Part shown: piece after piece, positions 30,677 through 39,271 of the stretch | Layout of the letters: the number at the start of each line of letters is the position of its first letter | How positions within the stretch are numbered: position 1 is the stretch's first letter | Source of the DNA: Thermaceae bacterium | GTDB lineage: Bacteria; Deinococcota; Deinococci; Deinococcales; Marinithermaceae | DNA length: 55,914 nt | Direction: 5' to 3' | NCBI GenBank assembly: GCA_026981865.1 | Contig: JALSIA010000137.1 | Span: forward strand, 1-55,914 | The notes under the pieces: model-generated | What the model was told of the DNA's origin: nothing | Seen by the model: only the letters and a program-made list of their open reading frames with translations | The model's database searches: none | Made by a program: the position numbers and the translations under genes

Positions 30677-31912
30677 ATGGACCTCCTCCCCCACCTCAAG
30701 GAACTGAGCCGCACCACGCCCAGCAAGATCCTCTTCGTCGTGCTCGACGGGGTGGGCGGGCTGCCCCGCGAACCGGGCGGGCCTACGGAGCTGGCCGCGG
30801 CCCGCACCCCTAACCTCGACGCCCTGGCCGAAAAGGCCAACCTGGGGCGCGTCACCCTGGTGGCCCCCGGCTTCGCGCCCGGCTCCGGGCCCGGCCACCT
30901 AAGCCTCTTCGGCTACGACCCCTTCCGCTACGAGGTGGGGCGCGGCGTCCTCTCGGCGCTGGGGCTGGGCCTCGAGCTGGGGCCCGACGACGTCGCGGTG
31001 CGCGGCAACTTCGCCACCCTGAACCCCGACGGCACCATCGTCGATCGACGCGCCGGCCGCCCCCCCACCGAGGAGAACCGGCGGGTGCTGGCGAAGTTGA
31101 AGGAGCGCATCCGCGAGATCGACGGCGCCAGGATCGAACTCCACACCGAGTCGGAGCACCGCTTCGTGCTGGTGCTGCGGGGCGTGGGGCTGGGCGACCG
31201 GGTTCACGACACCGACCCCCAGAAGACCGGGGTGCCGCCGCTTGCGGCCCGCCCCCACGACGAAAGCGACGAGCCCAGCGCCAAGACGGCCGACATCCTG
31301 AACAAGTTCACGGCGCGGGCCCGTCAGGTGCTCGCGGACGAACCCAAGATCAACGGGGTGCTGCTGCGCGGCGTCTCCAAGCGCCCGGTCTGGCCCACCC
31401 TGGGCGAGGTCACCGGGCTCACCCCCGCGGCGATCGCCAGCTACCCGATGTACCGCGGGGTGGCCTCGCTGGTGGGGATGACCCCGCTGGAGGTCGAGGT
31501 GGGCGAGGACCCCGACGCCCCCGAAGGCAAGCTCGCGGCCCTGAAGGCCCACTGGGAGGCCTTCGACTACTTCTACCTGCACTTCAAGAAGACCGACTCC
31601 ACCGGTGAAGACGGCGATTTCGACGCCAAAGTGCACAAGATCGAGGCCTTCGACGCCCTGCTCCCCGAACTGCTGGCGCTGGGGCCCGAGGTGATCGCCG
31701 TCACCGGCGACCACTCCACGCCCAGCGTGATGAAGGCGCACTCCTGGCACCCGGTACCCTTCCTGCTCTACGGCCCCAACCTGCGCGCCGACGCCGCCCG
31801 CCGCTTCACCGAAGACGAGGCGGCGGGGGGTGCGCTCGGCGACCTGCACGGCACCCACGTGCTGCCGCTCCTGCTGGCGCACGCGGGCAAGCTGCAAAAG
31901 TTCGGGGCCTAG
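30677..31912 (+). CDS. apgM: 2,3-bisphosphoglycerate-independent phosphoglycerate mutase, archaeal type
   Basis: 411 residues. Interconverts 3- and 2-phosphoglycerate in glycolysis. Alkaline-phosphatase-superfamily metal motifs are FVVLDGVGG near residue 23 and the C-terminal [36 protein letters not shown] carries the phosphorylated Ser region, and [10 protein letters not shown] and [15 protein letters not shown] fit the ApgM family rather than GpmI. Length is typical. Its last 4 bp overlap the convergent VanW-family gene. Confidence 0.95.
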
Positions 31913-33063
31913 GGGCGCGGCGGCGGACCGGCACCCTGCACCTCGGGTTTGCCAATGATCGGCGGGAGCGGCACCGCGGGCTCGAGTCCCGGGGGGCCGA
32001 CCAAGAAGACGTCGCCCCAGGGGCGGTAGACGCTCTCGAAAACGTCCTCATAGACGCGGCCGTCGTCGTAGTAGACTTTGCGCCGCACTACCGCGGTCAG
32101 CCCCTCGGCGGCCCAGTCGACCTGCTTGCGGTATCCCGGCTCGAGGGTCTCGTCCACGACCTCGCGGGGCTCGAGCGGCGGTTTGCGATCGTGGACGAAC
32201 GGCCCCTCCCACTCGACGCTGCGGTCGGCGGTACCGAAGAGGCGCACGTAGAGCTTGTACCCCCGCACCTGCGCCAGCACCAGGACGTCGCCGGGGGTGT
32301 CGTTGATGAACCGGAGGTCGCGCCAGGGCTGGTAGATGGTGGCGTCCAGGCCCACGGGGCGGTAGTAGCGCAGCTGGTAGCTGTGGGGGTAGCGCTCGGT
32401 CACCGGCAGCCCGGCGAAGAAGGCGGCGCGGAAGGCGGTGGTGGAAACCTGGCAGATGCCGCCGCCCACCCCCTTCTCGGTCGCGTCGCCGACGATGACC
32501 AGCGACTCCACGTAGCCGCGCTCCTCGTCGATCGCGCCCACCGCGCGGTTGAAGGAGAACTCGGCGCCGCGGGGGATCCAGGTGCCGCTCAGGTGCGCCG
32601 CCCCGGTGCGGATGTTGTGGATGCGGGCCCGGCTCGAGCCCCAAAACCCGGTCACCCCCTCGCCGATCAGCTCACGCACGCCGCGGGCGTACCATTCGGT
32701 TACGCTCGGCTCGGGTTCGATCACCTCGACGGGAATCACGAACTGGGAACGGCCCAGAAAGGCGGCGTCGCGGTAGGCCACGACGGCCGCCTCGACGTCC
32801 ATGCGGTAACCGCGGCGCTGCAAGGCAACCCAGCCCCGCTCGGGGTCGTAGACCCAGCGCGCCGGCCGCGCCTCCCGCCGGGCCATGTCCGCAAGGGCGC
32901 GCACCTCGTCGATGCTGTTCACCGGAAACGTCTTGGTGCCCACGTACTCGTGCAGCTCACCGCCCACGATCTCGTAGTCGCGGATCACCCAAACGGCGTT
33001 CACCTGCGCCAGCGCGGGTGCGAACAGCAGAAATATACCTAGAATCTTCCAAATTTCACGCAT
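31909..33063 (-). CDS. secreted VanW-family protein
   Basis: 384 residues with signal peptide [19 protein letters not shown]. The VanW domain (PF04294) occupies ~165-290: [40 protein letters not shown] and [17 protein letters not shown]. Its function is unknown; members are envelope proteins often near peptidoglycan genes. The ATG at 33063 has GGAGA 7 bp upstream and a TAGGAT box further out. Convergent with apgM and divergent from the beta-barrel gene. Confidence 0.85.
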
Positions 33064-33121: not shown

Positions 33122-33135
33122 CCCCCGTTTGAGGG
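33122..33135. repeat. CCC-GTTTG-type motif, copy 1
   Basis: CCCCCGTTTGAGGG, centred about 31 bp upstream of the -10 box of the beta-barrel gene. Shares its core with three motifs at 38509-38606 next to the pilin-like genes. Confidence 0.4.
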
Positions 33136-33159: not shown

Positions 33160-33165
33160 TAGAAT
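33160..33165 (+). promoter_or_regulatory. -10 box of usher-like beta-barrel gene
   Basis: TAGAAT, 7 bp before the ATG at 33173. This spacing argues for 33173 rather than the ATG at 33164, which overlaps the box. Confidence 0.65.
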
Positions 33166-33172
33166 GGTCGGG

Positions 33173-36088
33173 ATGGCCTTACGCGCCGGCACGCGCCTGC
33201 ACGCCGTACTCTGGGTCGCCCTGCTGCTCGTCGCGCAGCCGGCAGGCGCCCAGGGCGTCCAGGTCGAGCGGGCCTCCCCTGCGGTCAAAACCGCGGCTCC
33301 CGGGCACACGGTCACCCACGTCTTCGCGCTGCAGGGAAGCGGTACCGTACAGGTGCGCCTCACCTCCGAACACGGCTGGCCGTTGCTTACTCGCGAACGC
33401 ACGATCGCGCTCGAGGCGGGGCGGCCCTACTACTTCCCGGTCACGCTGCGCGTGCCCGAAGGCGTTCCCGCCGGAACCCGCGACCGCCTGCGCCTCCAGG
33501 CCGACGGCGCCTCCGCCGACGCCTTCACCGAGGTGGCCTACGCTCCCGGGCTCGAGGCGCACTGGCCGGCGGAGGTGGCCTACGTTCCGCCCTTCGGGCG
33601 CTTCGCGCTGGAGGTGGCGAACACCGGCAACGGCGCCGACGTCGTCCTCGTGCGCCTGCTCACCCTGCAGGGGGTGCCCGTCTACCAGGCGCGCCTTCCC
33701 CTCGAGCCCGGTGAGCGGCGCGAGCTGCGCGTGACCGCGGCCGAGCCGCGGGTGCTGCGGGTGGTCGTGCGGCTCGAGCGCGGCGGGCTCGAGCGCGAGG
33801 GGTACCTCGCCGTCCAGCCGGCGCGCGCCAAGGGCGACGGCGGCTTCCGGCTGCTCGGCCGCCTCGGCGCCGCCTACCGCTACCCAGGCGACCTCTCGTT
33901 TTCTTTGGGCGCGGCCGGACCGCTTTCCGACTTCACCCACTTCAGCCTCGGCGCGGGTTACGCCCCGGGCGGCTCGCCCGCGGGGGTGCTCGGCTTCAGC
34001 TGGGACGGCGGCTACCTGAGCGCCGCCTTCGGCCCCAGCTACGGGCTGGCCCTGGGGCTGTTCGAGGGTGCGGTCAGCACCCAGATCGCGCTCAGCGGGC
34101 CCGTCTGGCAGGGCAGCATGAACTTCGACGTCAGCGGACGCGGCTACGGATTCGGCGCGGCCGCGCTCCTCGACGAGGATCCGAGCCTGCGGCTGCGCGC
34201 CGACCTCGCCACCGGGAAGGGCAAAGCGGCGACCTTCCGGCCCGGCACCCTCACGGCCTCCCTGACGCTGCGGCCCTTCCGCGCCCAACTGAACGGAGAC
34301 CTCGCCTACGGCTTCCGCTACCGCGACTGGCCGATGCGGCTCCAGGGCGGCTTCTCGGGGGTGCCGGCCGCCCCCGTCGAGTTCCACTTCAGCGCCGACG
34401 TCAACCCCGAACCCTTCAGCGTGGGGGGGCGCCTCACCTGGACCGGGCTGGGCGTCGACGACTGGGGGCTGGCGGCGGCGAGCAGCAGCGAGCGGCTCGA
34501 TCTCGACCTGCCGCTCGCGGTCACCTTCGGTGCGGCGGCCGGCCCCGACCGCCTGCGCGCCTTCGCCCGCACGCGGCTCGACCTGCCCGCCCCCTGGAGC
34601 GACCTCGGCGCCGAAGCCCGCGTCGAGCACCGCGCGGGGCGCACGTCGTTCACGGTCTCCGGGGGCAGCGAGGCCGGCGTCGCGGAAGGGATGGCGCTGT
34701 TCGCGCTGAACGGCCGCCTCGGCTGGCCGCTCGAGGAGAACGAACTGCAGCTGGGCCTGCGTCTGGGCGGCAGCGAGCTGCGCACCCGCGCCGACCTGGC
34801 CTGGTCGCCCTGGAAACCCAACCTAAAAACCGCCCTGGCGTTCGAAGCGCCCGCCGGAGGCGCGCTGCTGCAGGCCCGCATCGACCGCGAGTGGTACGGG
34901 GGCCGCACCGCCCTGGGCCTCGGAGCGCAGATGCCTTTGGTCCTCGAGGTGCCGCCCGCCGTGACCCGCCTCTTCGGCGGCCGCAACGTCGGCATCGTGG
35001 CCGGCGAGGTCCGTGTCGAGGGGCCCGCGCGGTTGCGCGAAGGTCTCGTCGTGCGGGCCGGCGACCGCGAAACCCGAACCGACGCCGAGGGACGCTTCCG
35101 GCTGGAACTGCCCCCAGGGACCCACACCGTCGAGGTCGACCCCAACCGGCTGCCGGCCGTGCTGGTGCCCGTGCGCGGCCAGGTCCGCGTCGAGGTGCGG
35201 CGGAAGCAGAGCGTCTCCGTTCGCCTCGTCCTGGCGGCGCGCAGCGTCCTGGAGGGACGGGTGCGCGTCGTCGTCGAGCCCGGTCGCGAGCTCCCGCCCC
35301 GCCGCTTCGCGGTCGCGATCGAAGACGCATTGGGGCGGCGGACGTCGCTCTTCACCGACCCCGGCGGGGCGTTCACGGTGCCCGCACTCGCGCCGGGACG
35401 CTACACCGTGCGCCTGCTCGAAGACCTGCTTCCTGACGGTTGGGAGGCTTTGGTGCCGGCGGCGACCGTCCTGCTGCGTCCCGGCGAGACGGCGCGGGTG
35501 GAGCTGGCCGTCCGCCCCCCCCTGCGCAAGGTCTACACCGGCGGCAGCGTGCAGATCCTCGAGGTGCGGCCCGAAGCCGACCGGGTGCCGCCGGGGTCCG
35601 CGCCCCTCGTCGAAGTGCGCCTCCGAGGCGCAGCCAACCGGGTGGTCGTGACCCTGCAGGACCGCATCGTCGGCATCCTGCTGCCGGCTGCGGAGGAAGA
35701 AGGCCTCTGGCGCGGCCGCCTGCACGTGCCCGTCGACGCCAAAGGGCCGCTGGCGTTGCAGGTGGAAGCCTTGAACGGCGCGGTCGCGCGCTACCCTTTC
35801 TTCCTGAGCGTCAGCCCCGACGCCCCCTGGGGGGTGGTGCGGTCGCTGCCGGTGGCGCGCCCCGGCCAGACCCTGGAGGTGGCCGTGCACTGGTACGCTC
35901 CGGTGGAGTCAAGCTGGCTCGAGGTCGAAGGGGAACGCGTCGAACTGACCGGTCAGGGGGCCGACTGGACCGGGAAGCTCGTCGTGCCCGCGGACGCGGC
36001 GGCGCGCTGGAGCTTTACAGCCAAGGCGCGGCTGGGCTCTGGCGAGCTGGTGGAGCTGGCGAAGTTCGTCTTGATCCGGAAAGACTAA
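33173..36088 (+). CDS. large outer-membrane beta-barrel protein, usher-like
   Basis: 971 residues. A signal peptide ending in AGAQ (~25) is followed by an Ig-like region with an NEW3-type segment (~30-210). About 225-600 is a long run of alternating amphipathic strands rich in Gly and aromatics (FSLGAGYAPGG, GYLSAAFGPSYGLALG), typical of an outer-membrane barrel. The C-terminal ~370 residues hold carboxypeptidase-regulatory/Ig-like domains (GRFRLELPPGTHTVEVD, GAFTVPALAPGRYTVRLLED). The order exported domain, barrel, C-terminal Ig domains is that of fimbrial ushers, but sequence similarity to PapC is not evident to me. Convergent with three genes that include a PapD-like chaperone. Function is inferred. 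Confidence 0.65.
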   Translation: MALRAGTRLHAVLWVALLLVAQPAGAQGVQVERASPAVKTAAPGHTVTHVFALQGSGTVQVRLTSEHGWPLLTRERTIALEAGRPYYFPVTLRVPEGVPAGTRDRLRLQADGASADAFTEVAYAPGLEAHWPAEVAYVPPFGRFALEVANTGNGADVVLVRLLTLQGVPVYQARLPLEPGERRELRVTAAEPRVLRVVVRLERGGLEREGYLAVQPARAKGDGGFRLLGRLGAAYRYPGDLSFSLGAAGPLSDFTHFSLGAGYAPGGSPAGVLGFSWDGGYLSAAFGPSYGLALGLFEGAVSTQIALSGPVWQGSMNFDVSGRGYGFGAAALLDEDPSLRLRADLATGKGKAATFRPGTLTASLTLRPFRAQLNGDLAYGFRYRDWPMRLQGGFSGVPAAPVEFHFSADVNPEPFSVGGRLTWTGLGVDDWGLAAASSSERLDLDLPLAVTFGAAAGPDRLRAFARTRLDLPAPWSDLGAEARVEHRAGRTSFTVSGGSEAGVAEGMALFALNGRLGWPLEENELQLGLRLGGSELRTRADLAWSPWKPNLKTALAFEAPAGGALLQARIDREWYGGRTALGLGAQMPLVLEVPPAVTRLFGGRNVGIVAGEVRVEGPARLREGLVVRAGDRETRTDAEGRFRLELPPGTHTVEVDPNRLPAVLVPVRGQVRVEVRRKQSVSVRLVLAARSVLEGRVRVVVEPGRELPPRRFAVAIEDALGRRTSLFTDPGGAFTVPALAPGRYTVRLLEDLLPDGWEALVPAATVLLRPGETARVELAVRPPLRKVYTGGSVQILEVRPEADRVPPGSAPLVEVRLRGAANRVVVTLQDRIVGILLPAAEEEGLWRGRLHVPVDAKGPLALQVEALNGAVARYPFFLSVSPDAPWGVVRSLPVARPGQTLEVAVHWYAPVESSWLEVEGERVELTGQGADWTGKLVVPADAAARWSFTAKARLGSGELVELAKFVLIRKD

Positions 36089-36846
36089 GGCTCGTAGGGC
36101 TTCAATTCGGGCGTCTCGAACGCGCCGCCGCGGACGCCGAGCGTCGCGGCCGTCCGGCGGACGAAGAGGCCGGGCGTAAGCGTGAGCTGGGCGCTGCCGG
36201 TCTCGTTGCCGTGCAGCACCAACCGCGCCGGCAGCACCCAGGTGAAGACCGCGGTCCAGCAACGATCGTTGTACAGGCTGCGGCAGGTGGGGTAGCGGCG
36301 GTTGAAGTTTCGTACGTCCGAGATCTCCGGGGCGCCGAAGGAGATTGTCTGTGAAGCCTGCCAGGCGTTCCAGGAACCCGCGAGCGGCGGCACGCCGGCC
36401 GGAGGCGTGGTGAAGGGGCTGAGGAACTGCCCGTCCACCCGCCCCAGGTCGCCGCGGGCGTCGACCTGCAAGGCGTACGCGCGCTCGATCAGGCGCACGA
36501 GTGGATCCGTGCCGTAGGTGCGGTCGTCGGCGCGACGGCGGCCCCAGAACTTGACGGTCAGGACCGTGGCGTAGACCAGGTCGCCGCTGTTGGGGTTTGT
36601 GCCGTAGACGACGACCGGAGGCGCGGCCGGGCAACCCGCGGGAAGCGCGAGGTTGCTCACGGAGGCGCCGCCCGCGGGCGTCGCCCCCGGCTCCAGCAGG
36701 CCGGCGCACATCAACTCGAGGGCGCTGGGGCTGAATGTCAGGGTGGTCGGGTCGAAGCGGTTGTCTTGGTCCACGTTGTAGTACCAGACCTGAGCCGAAC
36801 CCAGACCGGCCAGAACGAGCAGCAGCGCCACGAAGCCACGCCTCAC
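36085..36846 (-). CDS. secreted protein of the chaperone/usher-like locus, unknown family
   Basis: 253 residues. Signal peptide RRGFVALLLVLAGLGSAQ. The mature part is beta-rich with four Cys (LMCAGLL, AGCPAAPP, PTCRSL, DRCWTAV), suggesting disulfides in the periplasm or outside. The C-terminal half contains FTWVLPARLVLHGNETGSA. No family recognised. GTG start overlaps the chaperone stop (GTGA), so the two are translationally coupled; a structural subunit or adaptor is possible. Its stop overlaps that of the barrel gene by 4 bp. Confidence 0.65.
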   Translation of the reverse strand: MRRGFVALLLVLAGLGSAQVWYYNVDQDNRFDPTTLTFSPSALELMCAGLLEPGATPAGGASVSNLALPAGCPAAPPVVVYGTNPNSGDLVYATVLTVKFWGRRRADDRTYGTDPLVRLIERAYALQVDARGDLGRVDGQFLSPFTTPPAGVPPLAGSWNAWQASQTISFGAPEISDVRNFNRRYPTCRSLYNDRCWTAVFTWVLPARLVLHGNETGSAQLTLTPGLFVRRTAATLGVRGGAFETPELKPYEP

Positions 36847-37664
36847 CGGAACGCCACCTCCCCGTAGAGCGGCGGGCCGCCGTAGCTCCCGGCCGGCCCC
36901 TGGGGCTGGATCTCGATCTGCGCGAGGATGACGTCGTCAGGCAGGTCTTCGGGTAAGGCCAGCCGGTAGCGCACCACCCCCTCGCGCAGCAGCACCCGCT
37001 CGGGCAGTTCCAGGCGCTGCGCCACCTCGCCCGCGGTGTTCACGAAACGCAGCTCGCCGTTCAGCCGCAGGTAGACGTTGCCGGTGTTCACCACGTCGGC
37101 GACCAGGTACCGCTTCCCCGACGCCTCATCGGTCGCCACCGTGACGCCCTGCAGCTCGGCGGCGGGCTGCTCGGTGCCCTGGACGGTGACGTAGACGACG
37201 GCCAGCGCCCGGGTACGCATCAGCGCCACGATGCCCTTCCGCTCGACGGGCCGCGGCTCGGTCGTAAAAGCCAGCGCCGCCCGATAGCTGCCGGAAAGCT
37301 CCGGACTCGCCGGAACGCTGACGGTAAAGCGCACCTCGTGGGTGGCGTCGCGCTCGAGCGTGAAGGGATCCAGCACGGTGCTCAGCCACGCGGCGGCGCT
37401 GTATGGCAACGAACCCGGGGGAAGCGTCTTCACGCCACCGTCGGGATCGATCAGCCAATCTACGAGGCTTACCTCGATGACCTGATCGGGGGTGTTGCGG
37501 CTGAACAGGGCCACCGACTGGGTGGTGGAATCCCCGGGAGCCAGCACCAGTTCGTAGCGCGGCGGCGCCACGCCGATCCCCGTCTGCGCCGACGCCGAGA
37601 CCAGCAACCAAAGCAGAAGAACCCCCGGCGACCAATTCCGGGGGCTCAAGAGGTTCCTAAACAC
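36843..37664 (-). CDS. PapD-like periplasmic chaperone
   Basis: 273 residues. Signal peptide region VLLLWLLVSASAQ. Two Ig-like domains follow: domain 1 has VAPPRYELVLAPGDSTTQSVAL, VSLVDWLIDPDGG, ERDATHEVRFTVSVPASP and SYRAALAF, the order of a pilus chaperone of the COG3121 type; domain 2 runs ~165-265 (VADVVNTGNVYLRLNGELRF). Predicted to cap secreted subunits before assembly. The GTG at 37664 is preferred because a TATACT box lies 6 bp upstream; an ATG at 37697 overlapping the preceding stop would add 11 residues. Confidence 0.65.
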   Translation of the reverse strand: MFRNLLSPRNWSPGVLLLWLLVSASAQTGIGVAPPRYELVLAPGDSTTQSVALFSRNTPDQVIEVSLVDWLIDPDGGVKTLPPGSLPYSAAAWLSTVLDPFTLERDATHEVRFTVSVPASPELSGSYRAALAFTTEPRPVERKGIVALMRTRALAVVYVTVQGTEQPAAELQGVTVATDEASGKRYLVADVVNTGNVYLRLNGELRFVNTAGEVAQRLELPERVLLREGVVRYRLALPEDLPDDVILAQIEIQPQGPAGSYGGPPLYGEVAFR

Positions 37665-37670
37665 CGTTCC

Positions 37671-37676
37671 AGTATA
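37671..37676 (-). promoter_or_regulatory. -10 box of PapD-like chaperone gene
   Basis: TATACT on the minus strand, 6 bp before the GTG at 37664; predicts a separate leaderless transcript within the operon. Confidence 0.6.
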
Positions 37677-37696
37677 CCCAAGGGGGAATGTGGGCA

Positions 37697-38368
37697 TTAC
37701 GGAGCGGAAGCGGTGTAGGTAACGAGGGTGGTGACGGCGCTGGTGGTGGCCGCGGAGGCCGTGGGGTCGACGTCGGCGGCGAAGGTGAGCGGGATGGCGT
37801 ATACGCCGGCGTACTGGGTGTACAGACCATCGGCATGGGTGGCCAGACCGGCTGCGGTGCCGGTAGGAATGTTGGTGAAGCCAATGCTGGTCGCGTCACC
37901 GAAATCGGGAGCCACCTTGTAGGTCACGCCGGAAGGAAGGCTGTCGGCCACGACACTCACCGAGTAGGTGGACGAGTTGGTGATGACCAGCAGCGAACCG
38001 TCGGCATTGCCCAGGTTGTTCCAGTTCACGGTGTAGCCGCTAGTGGAAACGCTGGTGGGACCGAACCGGCAGCTGCCCAGCGAGTTAGGGTTCGTGGGAG
38101 CATTGCTCTGCGCGGTAACGTTCAGCGACGAGGTAACGAGGCTGCCGATGCAGCTCTGCAGGTTGGCCTTGGACGCCTGGCCCGCAGTCCCCGCGTACAC
38201 CACGGTTCCGGTCGTGGTGGCGGTGAAGTCGAATTCCACCGAGCTGGTATTGGTGTAGACGTAGGCGTAAGTGGGGAAGCTGAAGTTCCAGTTCTGCTGC
38301 GTTTGCGCCAGCGCCCCGACGCTCAGGAGCGCACCGGCCAACACCAAGAGTCTGATCGCGTTCTTCAT
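37697..38368 (-). CDS. secreted pilin-like subunit candidate
   Basis: 223 residues. Signal peptide KNAIRLLVLAGALLSVGALAQ. The mature chain is rich in Thr, Ser, Asn, Val and Tyr, and predicted all-beta (WNFSFPTYAYVYTNTSSVEF, GYTVNWNNL, YSVSVVADSL). It has two Cys (QSCIGS, GSCRFG) likely forming a disulfide, and ends in strands YAIPLTFAADVDP and LVTYTASAP. Such composition and the adjacent chaperone suggest a surface-fibre subunit. Its base composition is visibly less GC-rich than its neighbours. Strong AAGGAGGAG ribosome-binding site before the ATG. Confidence 0.6.
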   Translation of the reverse strand: MKNAIRLLVLAGALLSVGALAQTQQNWNFSFPTYAYVYTNTSSVEFDFTATTTGTVVYAGTAGQASKANLQSCIGSLVTSSLNVTAQSNAPTNPNSLGSCRFGPTSVSTSGYTVNWNNLGNADGSLLVITNSSTYSVSVVADSLPSGVTYKVAPDFGDATSIGFTNIPTGTAAGLATHADGLYTQYAGVYAIPLTFAADVDPTASAATTSAVTTLVTYTASAP

Positions 38369-38483
38369 CGTCGTATCTCCTCCTTGTAGGGGTTTGGTCG
38401 GTCGCGCCACTGGCTCGCCGCTCGTCCCTTGGCGCCCGTATAGGGACCTGGCGGGTCATCGCCTCCAACTACACATCCCAGGC

Positions 38484-38508
38484 TAGGCAAGCCGCACCGG
38501 CTTGCCTA
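38484..38508. repeat. 10-bp perfect inverted repeat
   Basis: TAGGCAAGCC, loop GCACC, GGCTTGCCTA. No T run on either side and no gene ends nearby, so it is not an obvious terminator. Confidence 0.6.
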
Positions 38509-38522
38509 CCCCCAAATGGGGG
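38509..38522. repeat. CCC-(A/G)TTTG-type motif, copy 2
   Basis: CCCCCAAATGGGGG, 6-bp arms with a 2-bp centre, directly abutting the previous hairpin. Confidence 0.45.
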
Positions 38523-38537
38523 CACCCAAACGGGGTG
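38523..38537. repeat. CCC-GTTTG-type motif, copy 3 (inverted)
   Basis: CACCCAAACGGGGTG; its complement reads CACCCCGTTTGGGTG, an inverted version of copy 4. Confidence 0.45.
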
Positions 38538-38590
38538 AGGGGCTTCGTAGCACCTCATCGGAACGGGTTCAACGAGGGGCGGTTTCCTAT

Positions 38591-38606
38591 CACCCGTTTG
38601 GGGGTG
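38591..38606. repeat. CCC-GTTTG-type motif, copy 4
   Basis: CACCCGTTTGGGGGTG, palindromic flanks CACCC/GGGTG. Confidence 0.45.
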
Positions 38607-38817
38607 TTCCTGGCCATCTCGAAGCGCTAGGCTGAGGGTGCGAGGCTCCGCCAACGGGGCGGGCGCTCGTGGGCCGCAGGACGGCTCAAATCTTGGAGGC
38701 GTTGAACCGTGAACCCCAATCTGGGCACCAAGGGACACGGGGAGCCAGTGGTGCAACCGGCCAAGAAGATGATTGCGCTCTTTTACGATCACTTCCCCCC
38801 ATCGAGCACGACCGGTT

Positions 38818-38849
38818 GCATTCCACCCACAAAGGAGTGGTGGGAATGC
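38818..38849 (+). promoter_or_regulatory. hairpin presenting the ribosome-binding site of the 141-residue gene
   Basis: GCATTCC (38818-38824) pairs with GGAATGC (38843-38849); after one bulged G, ACC (38825-38827) pairs with GGT (38839-38841). The loop holds AAAGGAG (38831-38837) and the ATG (38846-38848) is inside the stem. Such a structure could control translation. Confidence 0.5.
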
Positions 38850-39271
38850 AGAAGAAGATATGGATTGCGGCGCTCGCGCTGGTTCTAGGCCTGGCCTGGG
38901 CGGGCGGCAACACGACGAATTTCGTAGTGCGCATGCCCGAAATTCTCTGGCTCGAGATCAACGGCAAGCAGGCGGAACGGGTTCCCGTCCGCGTGGAAGA
39001 CGGCAGGGTTTCGCCGGGGGTGCTGCACGTCCGCGTGGTGGGCAACACCGCCTGGCGCCTCACCGTGACGGCCACCCCGCTGGTGGGGCCGCTCACGCTG
39101 CCGCCCGAGCGGCTGGTGCTCGCGGGGCAGGCGCTTTCGTCCCTCGAGCGCACCGTGCGCGAGGGCGTGGGCAGCGCCCGCTTCGACCTGGACCTGGGGG
39201 TCCGGCTCGAGCCCGGTGAGCCCGCAGGCCCCTACGAAGGCCTGCTCACCTTCGTGCTCTACCGGCTCTAG
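38846..39271 (+). CDS. small secreted beta-rich protein, possible subunit
   Basis: 141 residues. Signal peptide QKKIWIAALALVLGLAWAGG. The mature ~120 residues begin NFVVRMPEILWLEING and end GPYEGLLTFVLYRL, with a central WRLTVTATPL. The strand order resembles the 223-residue protein (SFPTYAYV, YSVSVVA, GVYAIPLTF), hinting at a shared pilin-like or WxL-like beta-sandwich. No Cys. Divergent from the subunit/chaperone genes across the hairpin-rich region. Function inferred from context only. Confidence 0.6.
   Translation: MQKKIWIAALALVLGLAWAGGNTTNFVVRMPEILWLEINGKQAERVPVRVEDGRVSPGVLHVRVVGNTAWRLTVTATPLVGPLTLPPERLVLAGQALSSLERTVREGVGSARFDLDLGVRLEPGEPAGPYEGLLTFVLYRL

Follow-up and report, generated by a model that had tools for sequence, protein, structure and literature searches.

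A probable c-di-GMP-controlled, chaperone-usher-like surface assembly system of the Deinococcota

A Cluster of Five Genes for Exported Proteins

The stretch of DNA analysed in this work, referred to as the window, is 55,914 nucleotides (nt) long and consists of a single contig (JALSIA010000137.1) of the draft genome of a Thermaceae bacterium from the phylum Deinococcota (assembly GCA_026981865.1). Between positions 33164 and 39271 it contains five genes, designated here A to E, which probably specify a surface assembly system of the Deinococcota that is chaperone-usher-like and controlled by cyclic di-GMP (c-di-GMP). The computed results that carry this interpretation are the gene set and its co-conservation, the predicted folds of A and C, the homology of C both to chaperones of the PapD_N type and to the WxLIP proteins of Bacillota, and two riboswitches. 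An earlier note on this DNA, made from the sequence alone, had placed five exported products in this region and had interpreted them as a divergent chaperone-usher-type system. All of the open reading frames were present where it had placed them, and its interpretation is supported by the co-conservation of the genes, the large barrel predicted for A and the homology of C. The genes are as follows (aa, amino acids):

A, 33164..36088, + strand: predicted usher-like outer-membrane protein, 974 aa, with a signal peptide; domains from Pfam and a predicted model
B, 36085..36846, - strand: secreted 253-aa product, encoded between C and A; four invariant cysteines
C, 36843..37697, - strand: exported chaperone with two immunoglobulin-like (Ig) domains, WxLIP/PapD-like, 284 aa
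D, 37697..38368, - strand: secreted subunit candidate, 223 aa from the MKNAIRLL start; first gene of the D-C-B operon; two invariant cysteines
E, 38846..39271, + strand: secreted subunit candidate, 141 aa; WxL-like motif WRL and a G-x-Y...FxL C-terminal strand

A signal-peptide-like N-terminus was recognized by eye on all five products. For A, the ATG at 33164 gives the protein of 974 aa and that at 33173 one of 971 aa. The genes D, C and B form a tight leftward operon with a 4-nt overlap between C and B. The orientation of A and B is convergent and that of D and E divergent.

Conservation of the Cluster within the Deinococcota

The distribution of these genes was determined in a sample of first 81 and then 111 Deinococcota genomes, the counts given here being those for the larger sample. 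Strong matches to A were found 60 times in 47 genomes and those to C 59 times in 46 genomes, with both proteins present together in 45. A gene for C lies no more than 3 kb from A for 54 of the 60 strong A genes; the contigs carrying the remaining six yielded no strong C, and several of these A genes are near a contig end. The A-C pairs exhibit two layouts. Fifteen pairs are convergent as in the window, with a gap of 0.76-1.4 kb that holds B or its counterpart; the other 39 are on the same strand, and the gap, which is at most 0.7 kb in 37 of them, is usually occupied by one subunit-sized gene. The relatives from the same family contain the same set of genes in the same order, and this retention of the cluster as a set is far beyond chance. 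The co-conservation that the earlier note had named as a test of its interpretation is therefore observed, and chaperone, subunit and pore genes are found clustered and conserved together as they are in chaperone-usher systems.

A restriction of the system to the family of the window was also considered, and this idea was dropped when related A-C pairs were found across the phylum. On the Deinococcus plasmids CP058536 and NZ_CP034185 a same-strand set of four genes is present, every one of which is annotated as a "hypothetical protein". We consider the system to be a real, phylum-wide variant that is apparently undescribed. The host genome itself carries a second, same-strand copy (G000:C196:36299-40840, locus L079) consisting of C, a subunit and an A of 1063 aa. 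At two loci elsewhere in the phylum, the A of L082 (G067) and the C of L087 (G018) are each split into two overlapping frames by a frameshift or a sequencing error.

Relationship of C to PapD-Type Chaperones and to WxLIP

No chaperone or usher was matched when the proteins of the window were searched singly against Pfam, NCBIfam and PDB sequences, and the sequence of C by itself gave no telling match in Pfam or the PDB. The model of C (AlphaFold2, 34 homologues, pLDDT 89) consists of two Ig domains. When this model was searched with Foldseek, the WxLIP structures of Enterococcus faecium ranked first (2e-11), followed by the chaperones CfaA, CsuC, Caf1M and FimC (5e-9 to 1e-6), with TM values of about 0.4-0.5 that perhaps result from a differing hinge. 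The model and its fold matches bear out the earlier description of C as an exported two-Ig protein with a PapD-like pattern. Searches with a profile of C against PDB sequences identified EfmWxLIP1 as the sole convincing relative (3.6e-4), and the comparison of C with five WxLIPs from lactic acid bacteria by hhalign extends over both domains (92%, P 6e-7; 91% without the signal peptides). The Pfam family WxLIP_PGBD (PF06030) matches 11 of the 34 C members weakly (best 9e-4), the C of the window itself being unmatched, and the C member for which a cut-off was printed scores below it.

A narrower alignment of C, used for a scan of the collection, yielded a relative in the cyanobacterium Plectonema radiosum (locus L137). 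This chaperone of 304 aa passes the Pfam cut-off for PapD_N (1.2e-7; 32.2 versus 23 bits), and its operon encodes, besides the chaperone, two secreted subunit-like proteins and an usher-like protein of 1207 aa. The alignment of C by hhalign with 13 cyanobacterial chaperones, consisting of the Plectonema protein, on which the PapD_N scan was made, and twelve others, covers the full length (99.9%, P 1.4e-33), with only 0.6% for a reversed decoy; directly compared with the PapD-family chaperones of E. coli, C gave 2-7%. On the evidence of these profile comparisons, C belongs as a distant relative to the PapD superfamily, via the cyanobacterial branch, and the cluster has the two-Ig periplasmic chaperone of this superfamily that is found in chaperone-usher systems. 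Of the "remote or independent version" proposed in the earlier note, the first word stands for the chaperone, C being a remote homologue of known chaperones and not invented independently. The predicted G1 strand of C contains alternating hydrophobic residues (156, 158, 160, 162, and 164) throughout the family, and the protein ends in a strand and a short polar tail, with no C-terminal transmembrane helix of the kind present in WxLIP. A likeness of C to E (92%) was discarded when it fell to 32% once the signal peptides were cut.

Predicted Architecture of the Barrel Protein A

The model of A was built on 32 homologues (pLDDT 87.7), and its pTM of 0.55 leaves the placement of the domains uncertain. 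It begins with two Ig domains (residues 33-219), followed by 26 consecutive predicted strands (229-595) of 7-15 residues each, joined by loops of 2-11. Next come a short helix with a conserved FGGR motif and two TTR/CarboxypepD_reg-like domains (about 605-790; Pfam 2e-11), and a second pair of Ig domains (795-974) ends the protein. Pfam and the model thus agree with the exported protein with an Ig N-terminus, barrel-like middle and Ig/carboxypeptidase-regulatory C-terminus that had been described earlier, and in place of the closed or tiny barrel that was to have spoken against a chaperone-usher-type system, a large one is predicted. Hydrophobic and polar residues alternate along the barrel strands (mean difference 3.2 versus 1.4 in permutations); as the Ig strands of A alternate too, this supports the presence of strands and not by itself their insertion in a membrane.

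The N-terminal Ig pair of A is related to C: the comparison gave 96.8% (P 2e-10), as against 13.9% (P 0.002) for a reversed decoy. It therefore seems that a duplicated chaperone module is carried by the pore protein at its N-terminus. Among the 50 best PDB fold matches of A, the ushers FimD and PapC are the only outer-membrane proteins (E-values to 1e-13). The TTR part of A is matched by the C-terminal end of the usher-like proteins from cyanobacteria (98.7%, P 4.5e-16), an observation that is supportive but, TTR domains being common, not decisive for a relationship. For the similarity to the C-terminal domains of E. coli ushers, the values are 2% for A and 27% for its cyanobacterial relatives. 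An alignment of A with the E. coli ushers in which the second Ig domain and first strands of A are joined to the plug region was not retained and is a hint only.

Subunit Candidates

The structure models cover A and C, and the proteins B, D and E are known as subunit candidates from their sequences. A member of the E family adjoins nearly every C gene. Its members have in common the N-terminal strand V-x-V-x-I-P, a motif of the W-x-L type and G-x-Y...Y/F-x-L as the last strand, and by eye these features are in register with the WxL domain. WxL proteins are recognized by two W-x-L motifs and a match to PF13731. In E the first motif, WRL, is WxL-like and the second position reads FVL, and PF13731 has no match in the host genome. 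The kinship of E with WxL, as judged by hhalign, is a lead and not a proof. The profile of E also picks out the first of the two subunit genes in the Plectonema operon (9e-5), and nothing relevant was found with the E-family profile among PDB sequences. The assignment of E to the FimA family was rejected (10%, from the last strand alone).

Two of the small proteins had earlier been regarded as alike in their first and last strands. For D and E this holds to a limited extent, namely for the signal peptide and N-terminal strand and, by eye, for the last strand; the hhalign value is 95.6% with the signal peptide and 12.5% without it. The likeness between E and B is confined to the signal peptide. 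The gene located between C and A in the Trueperaceae specifies a longer product with an E-like domain at its end, a layout that would fit a tip protein, and B, for which no Pfam match was found, may likewise be a tip or special subunit.

Predicted Regulatory Elements

D and E are separated by 0.48 kb, and this interval contains two divergent aptamers of the c-di-GMP-II class identified with Rfam, each of them in a 5' leader and above its gathering threshold. Three copies of a palindrome are also present in the cluster:

38686..38771, + strand: c-di-GMP-II riboswitch aptamer (RF01786) in the leader of E; 67.3 bits versus gathering 53.5, E 6.9e-14
38387..38475, - strand: c-di-GMP-II-GAG riboswitch aptamer (RF03169) in the D-C-B leader; 57.3 bits versus gathering 40, E 1.1e-9
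33122..33135, no strand: palindrome CCCCCGTTTGAGGG, 28 bp upstream of A; candidate shared operator; identical in relatives G001, G002 and G004
38509..38522, no strand: palindrome CCCCCAAATGGGGG, between D and E; candidate shared operator
38593..38604, no strand: palindrome CCCGTTTGGGGG, between D and E; candidate shared operator

The ligand of both predicted aptamers is assumed from their family membership to be c-di-GMP; for the GAG class a different ligand may be favoured. The whole host genome contains three elements of this class, the third being located at G000:C9:900-984. Across the phylum, 26 of 87 C loci have a c-di-GMP-II element within 3 kb, and in 25 of these 26 it is upstream on the same strand; by our own estimate, which assumes a few elements (more in some) per genome of 2-4 Mb, about 1% would be expected by chance. 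The loci of the same-strand layout are mostly without such elements, including the second copy in the host genome, near which none was present among those listed. A third group of C loci, from genomes of the family f4 (G065:C1:73144-75325, G093:C5:15156-17324, G035:C9, G020:C9, G051:C9, G037:C50, and G063:C32), has one to three c-di-GMP-II elements upstream, and A is much more divergent there or was not detected. Neither the riboswitches nor the WxLIP link was part of the earlier note, and in the literature searched we found no paper that links c-di-GMP-II or GAG riboswitches to a gene cluster of this kind.

Within the window the palindrome (CCCCC-RTTTG-GGGGG) is confined to three sites, all of them in this cluster (six overlapping matches by script for the three sites; expectation 0.5), and it is kept at the same places in the relatives G001 and G002 and before A and before D in G004. 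A scan of the D-E region for promoters and terminators revealed nothing above shuffles. The palindrome-bearing region upstream of A is shared with a divergent gene for a VanW-domain protein (31912-33015; Pfam 2.6e-42).

Evaluation of the Proposed Interpretation

A number of observations weigh against regarding this cluster as chaperone-usher-like. The usher family PF00577 was detected in none of the 111 Deinococcota genomes and does not figure in the list of 25 families obtained for A and 31 homologues, in accordance with the earlier remark that no PapC-like sequence was evident. Ushers possess a 24-strand barrel with an inserted plug and a characteristic N-terminal domain, whereas A is predicted to have 26 strands, the longest loop of 11 aa leaving no room for a plug, and it opens with the C-related Ig pair; by the marks of PF00577, plug and strand number, A falls outside the usher family. 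Aligned with E. coli ushers, A gave 34-37%, and its N-terminus and barrel 15%; its barrel could not be aligned with that of the cyanobacterial proteins (4.5%), and the TM values for FimD and PapC are only 0.11-0.23 on the query, the likeness to them being one of domain order. In C, the classical cleft pair Arg8/Lys112 is not preserved: by a register based upon hhalign and inspection by eye, the equivalent of Arg8 (Arg47) is present in 20 of the 34 members and no lysine occurs at the place of Lys112 in any of them. To these points should be added the comparison of E with WxL by hhalign, which gave 61% (P 8e-5) with signal peptides and 23% (P 9e-4) without them, and the fact that the palindrome was chosen by eye after reading the sequence, so that the real evidence it provides is its restriction to the cluster.

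WxLIP is the closest solved relative of C by fold, by sequence profile and by hhalign over both Ig domains, the family WxLIP_PGBD reaches some of the C members, and E has a WxL-like motif in register with WxL. The cluster could on this basis encode a WxL-type surface complex of a diderm, without a chain of subunits, in which C would stay bound to WxL-like subunits and anchor them and A would be an outer-membrane exporter or anchor. We regard this as unlikely, since C lacks the C-terminal transmembrane helix of WxLIP and is nearly always accompanied by a dedicated 26-strand barrel, its cyanobacterial relatives are found in operons for subunits, chaperone and usher-like protein, the one that was scanned carrying PapD_N, and the similarity of E to WxL is weak when the signal peptides are removed.

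The barrel of LptD likewise has 26 strands, and this agreement in number, together with the lack of usher homology in A, would be accounted for if A were a general outer-membrane channel for some other cargo (polysaccharide, S-layer or lipid), with the Ig proteins as periplasmic scaffolding. Such a role appears quite improbable, as neither LptD nor a polysaccharide exporter is among the top 50 fold matches of A, A is strictly paired with C and with secreted subunit-like genes, and the cluster contains no glycosyltransferase or lipid genes. Lastly, Ig and TTR are widespread domains that match promiscuously, as they did with axonemal and complement proteins in the fold search with A, and the products could be secreted Ig-like proteins that have nothing in common beyond being encoded side by side. 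This explanation is largely refuted by the co-conservation and has very little probability left, in view of the same set and order of genes in the family relatives, the pairing of A with C and the common riboswitch class and palindrome.

Proposed Mechanism and Its Implications

In the chaperone-usher-like assembly system that we favour, D, E and probably B would be exported to the periplasm, where C would hold each subunit by lending it a strand, the hydrophobic one of the F1-G1 hairpin (around residues 150-172). C would then hand the subunit to A, whose C-like N-terminal Ig pair would serve as the receptor; the 26-strand barrel would pass the growing chain across the outer membrane, with the C-terminal TTR and Ig domains of A handling it. 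A change in c-di-GMP is proposed to switch on E and D-C-B via the two riboswitches, and the palindrome also found in the promoter region of A may tie this gene into the same regulon. The polymerised product may be the fibre or coat suggested in the earlier note, with a possible role in adhesion or biofilms. Much more tentatively, and with a good deal of doubt, the WxLIP/WxL and the chaperone/subunit pairs might have come from one ancestral strand-donating module, which in the Deinococcota was joined to a separately recruited, plugless 26-strand usher with a duplicated-chaperone N-terminal receptor and placed under c-di-GMP riboswitches.

To our knowledge, type IV pili are the only surface fibres of Deinococcota that have been studied in detail. 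If our interpretation is correct, this phylum gains a second class of surface structure, which is controlled by c-di-GMP, and the chaperone-usher principle works with a pore that is differently built. It would also offer a bridge between the WxL/WxLIP surface systems of Gram-positive bacteria and chaperone-usher pili, and the heat-stable proteins should be suited to structural work.

Comparison with Known Systems

With the archaic and alternative chaperone-usher systems (Csu, CFA/I; PMC4654587), the Deinococcota cluster shares the two-Ig chaperone fold, CfaA and CsuC being among the best fold matches of C, as well as an outer-membrane barrel flanked on either side by periplasmic domains and small, beta-rich secreted subunits. 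It differs from them in the absence of PF00577, a plug and the cleft lysine, in the predicted number of strands (26 versus 24) and in its subunit family. Archaic systems have been stated to occur in Deinococcus-Thermus (PMC4654587), whereas PF00577 had no match in our genomes. The leaders of E and D-C-B contain aptamers of the known c-di-GMP-II and c-di-GMP-II-GAG riboswitch families.

The WxL/WxLIP (DUF916-DUF3324) system of Bacillota (PMC10599100; PDB 9i25, 9i1y) resembles the cluster in that both domains of C are akin to WxLIP in fold and in profile and E has WxL-like features. The differences are that C has no transmembrane helix, PF13731 is unmatched in the host genome, the second motif is FxL or YxL and an outer-membrane barrel is added. 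In a published prediction a hairpin strand of WxLIP completes the WxL sandwich (PMC10599100), and this insertion may be viewed as equivalent to the donor-strand complementation seen in chaperone-usher pili, though not called by that name; the paper itself makes no mention of a relation to chaperone-usher systems. A fragment of Gram-positive-type WxLIP (55% identity) was also observed on a plasmid labelled Klebsiella pneumoniae (CP069367.1:102073-102468, H1), where it is probably due to contamination or mislabelling.

The nearest known relatives are the cyanobacterial operons of the CccS/CccP/UshA type (PMC4390875, PMC6755745), which also consist of secreted subunits, a PapD_N-type chaperone and a large usher-like protein ending in CarboxypepD_reg, with chaperones that are homologous to C over their full length and homologous TTR domains. 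In contrast, their barrel cannot be aligned with that of A, and A alone carries the C-like N-terminal Ig pair. The cyanobacterial subunits look SCPU-like, as published for CccS, and the five scanned here had no Pfam match; a UshA mutant showed no flocculation defect (PMC6755745). In the cyanobacterial operons at L137 and L156-L169 (tested in one whole genome and five further proteins) the usher-like protein also escapes PF00577, and the cyanobacterial "usher" family may be wider than annotated.

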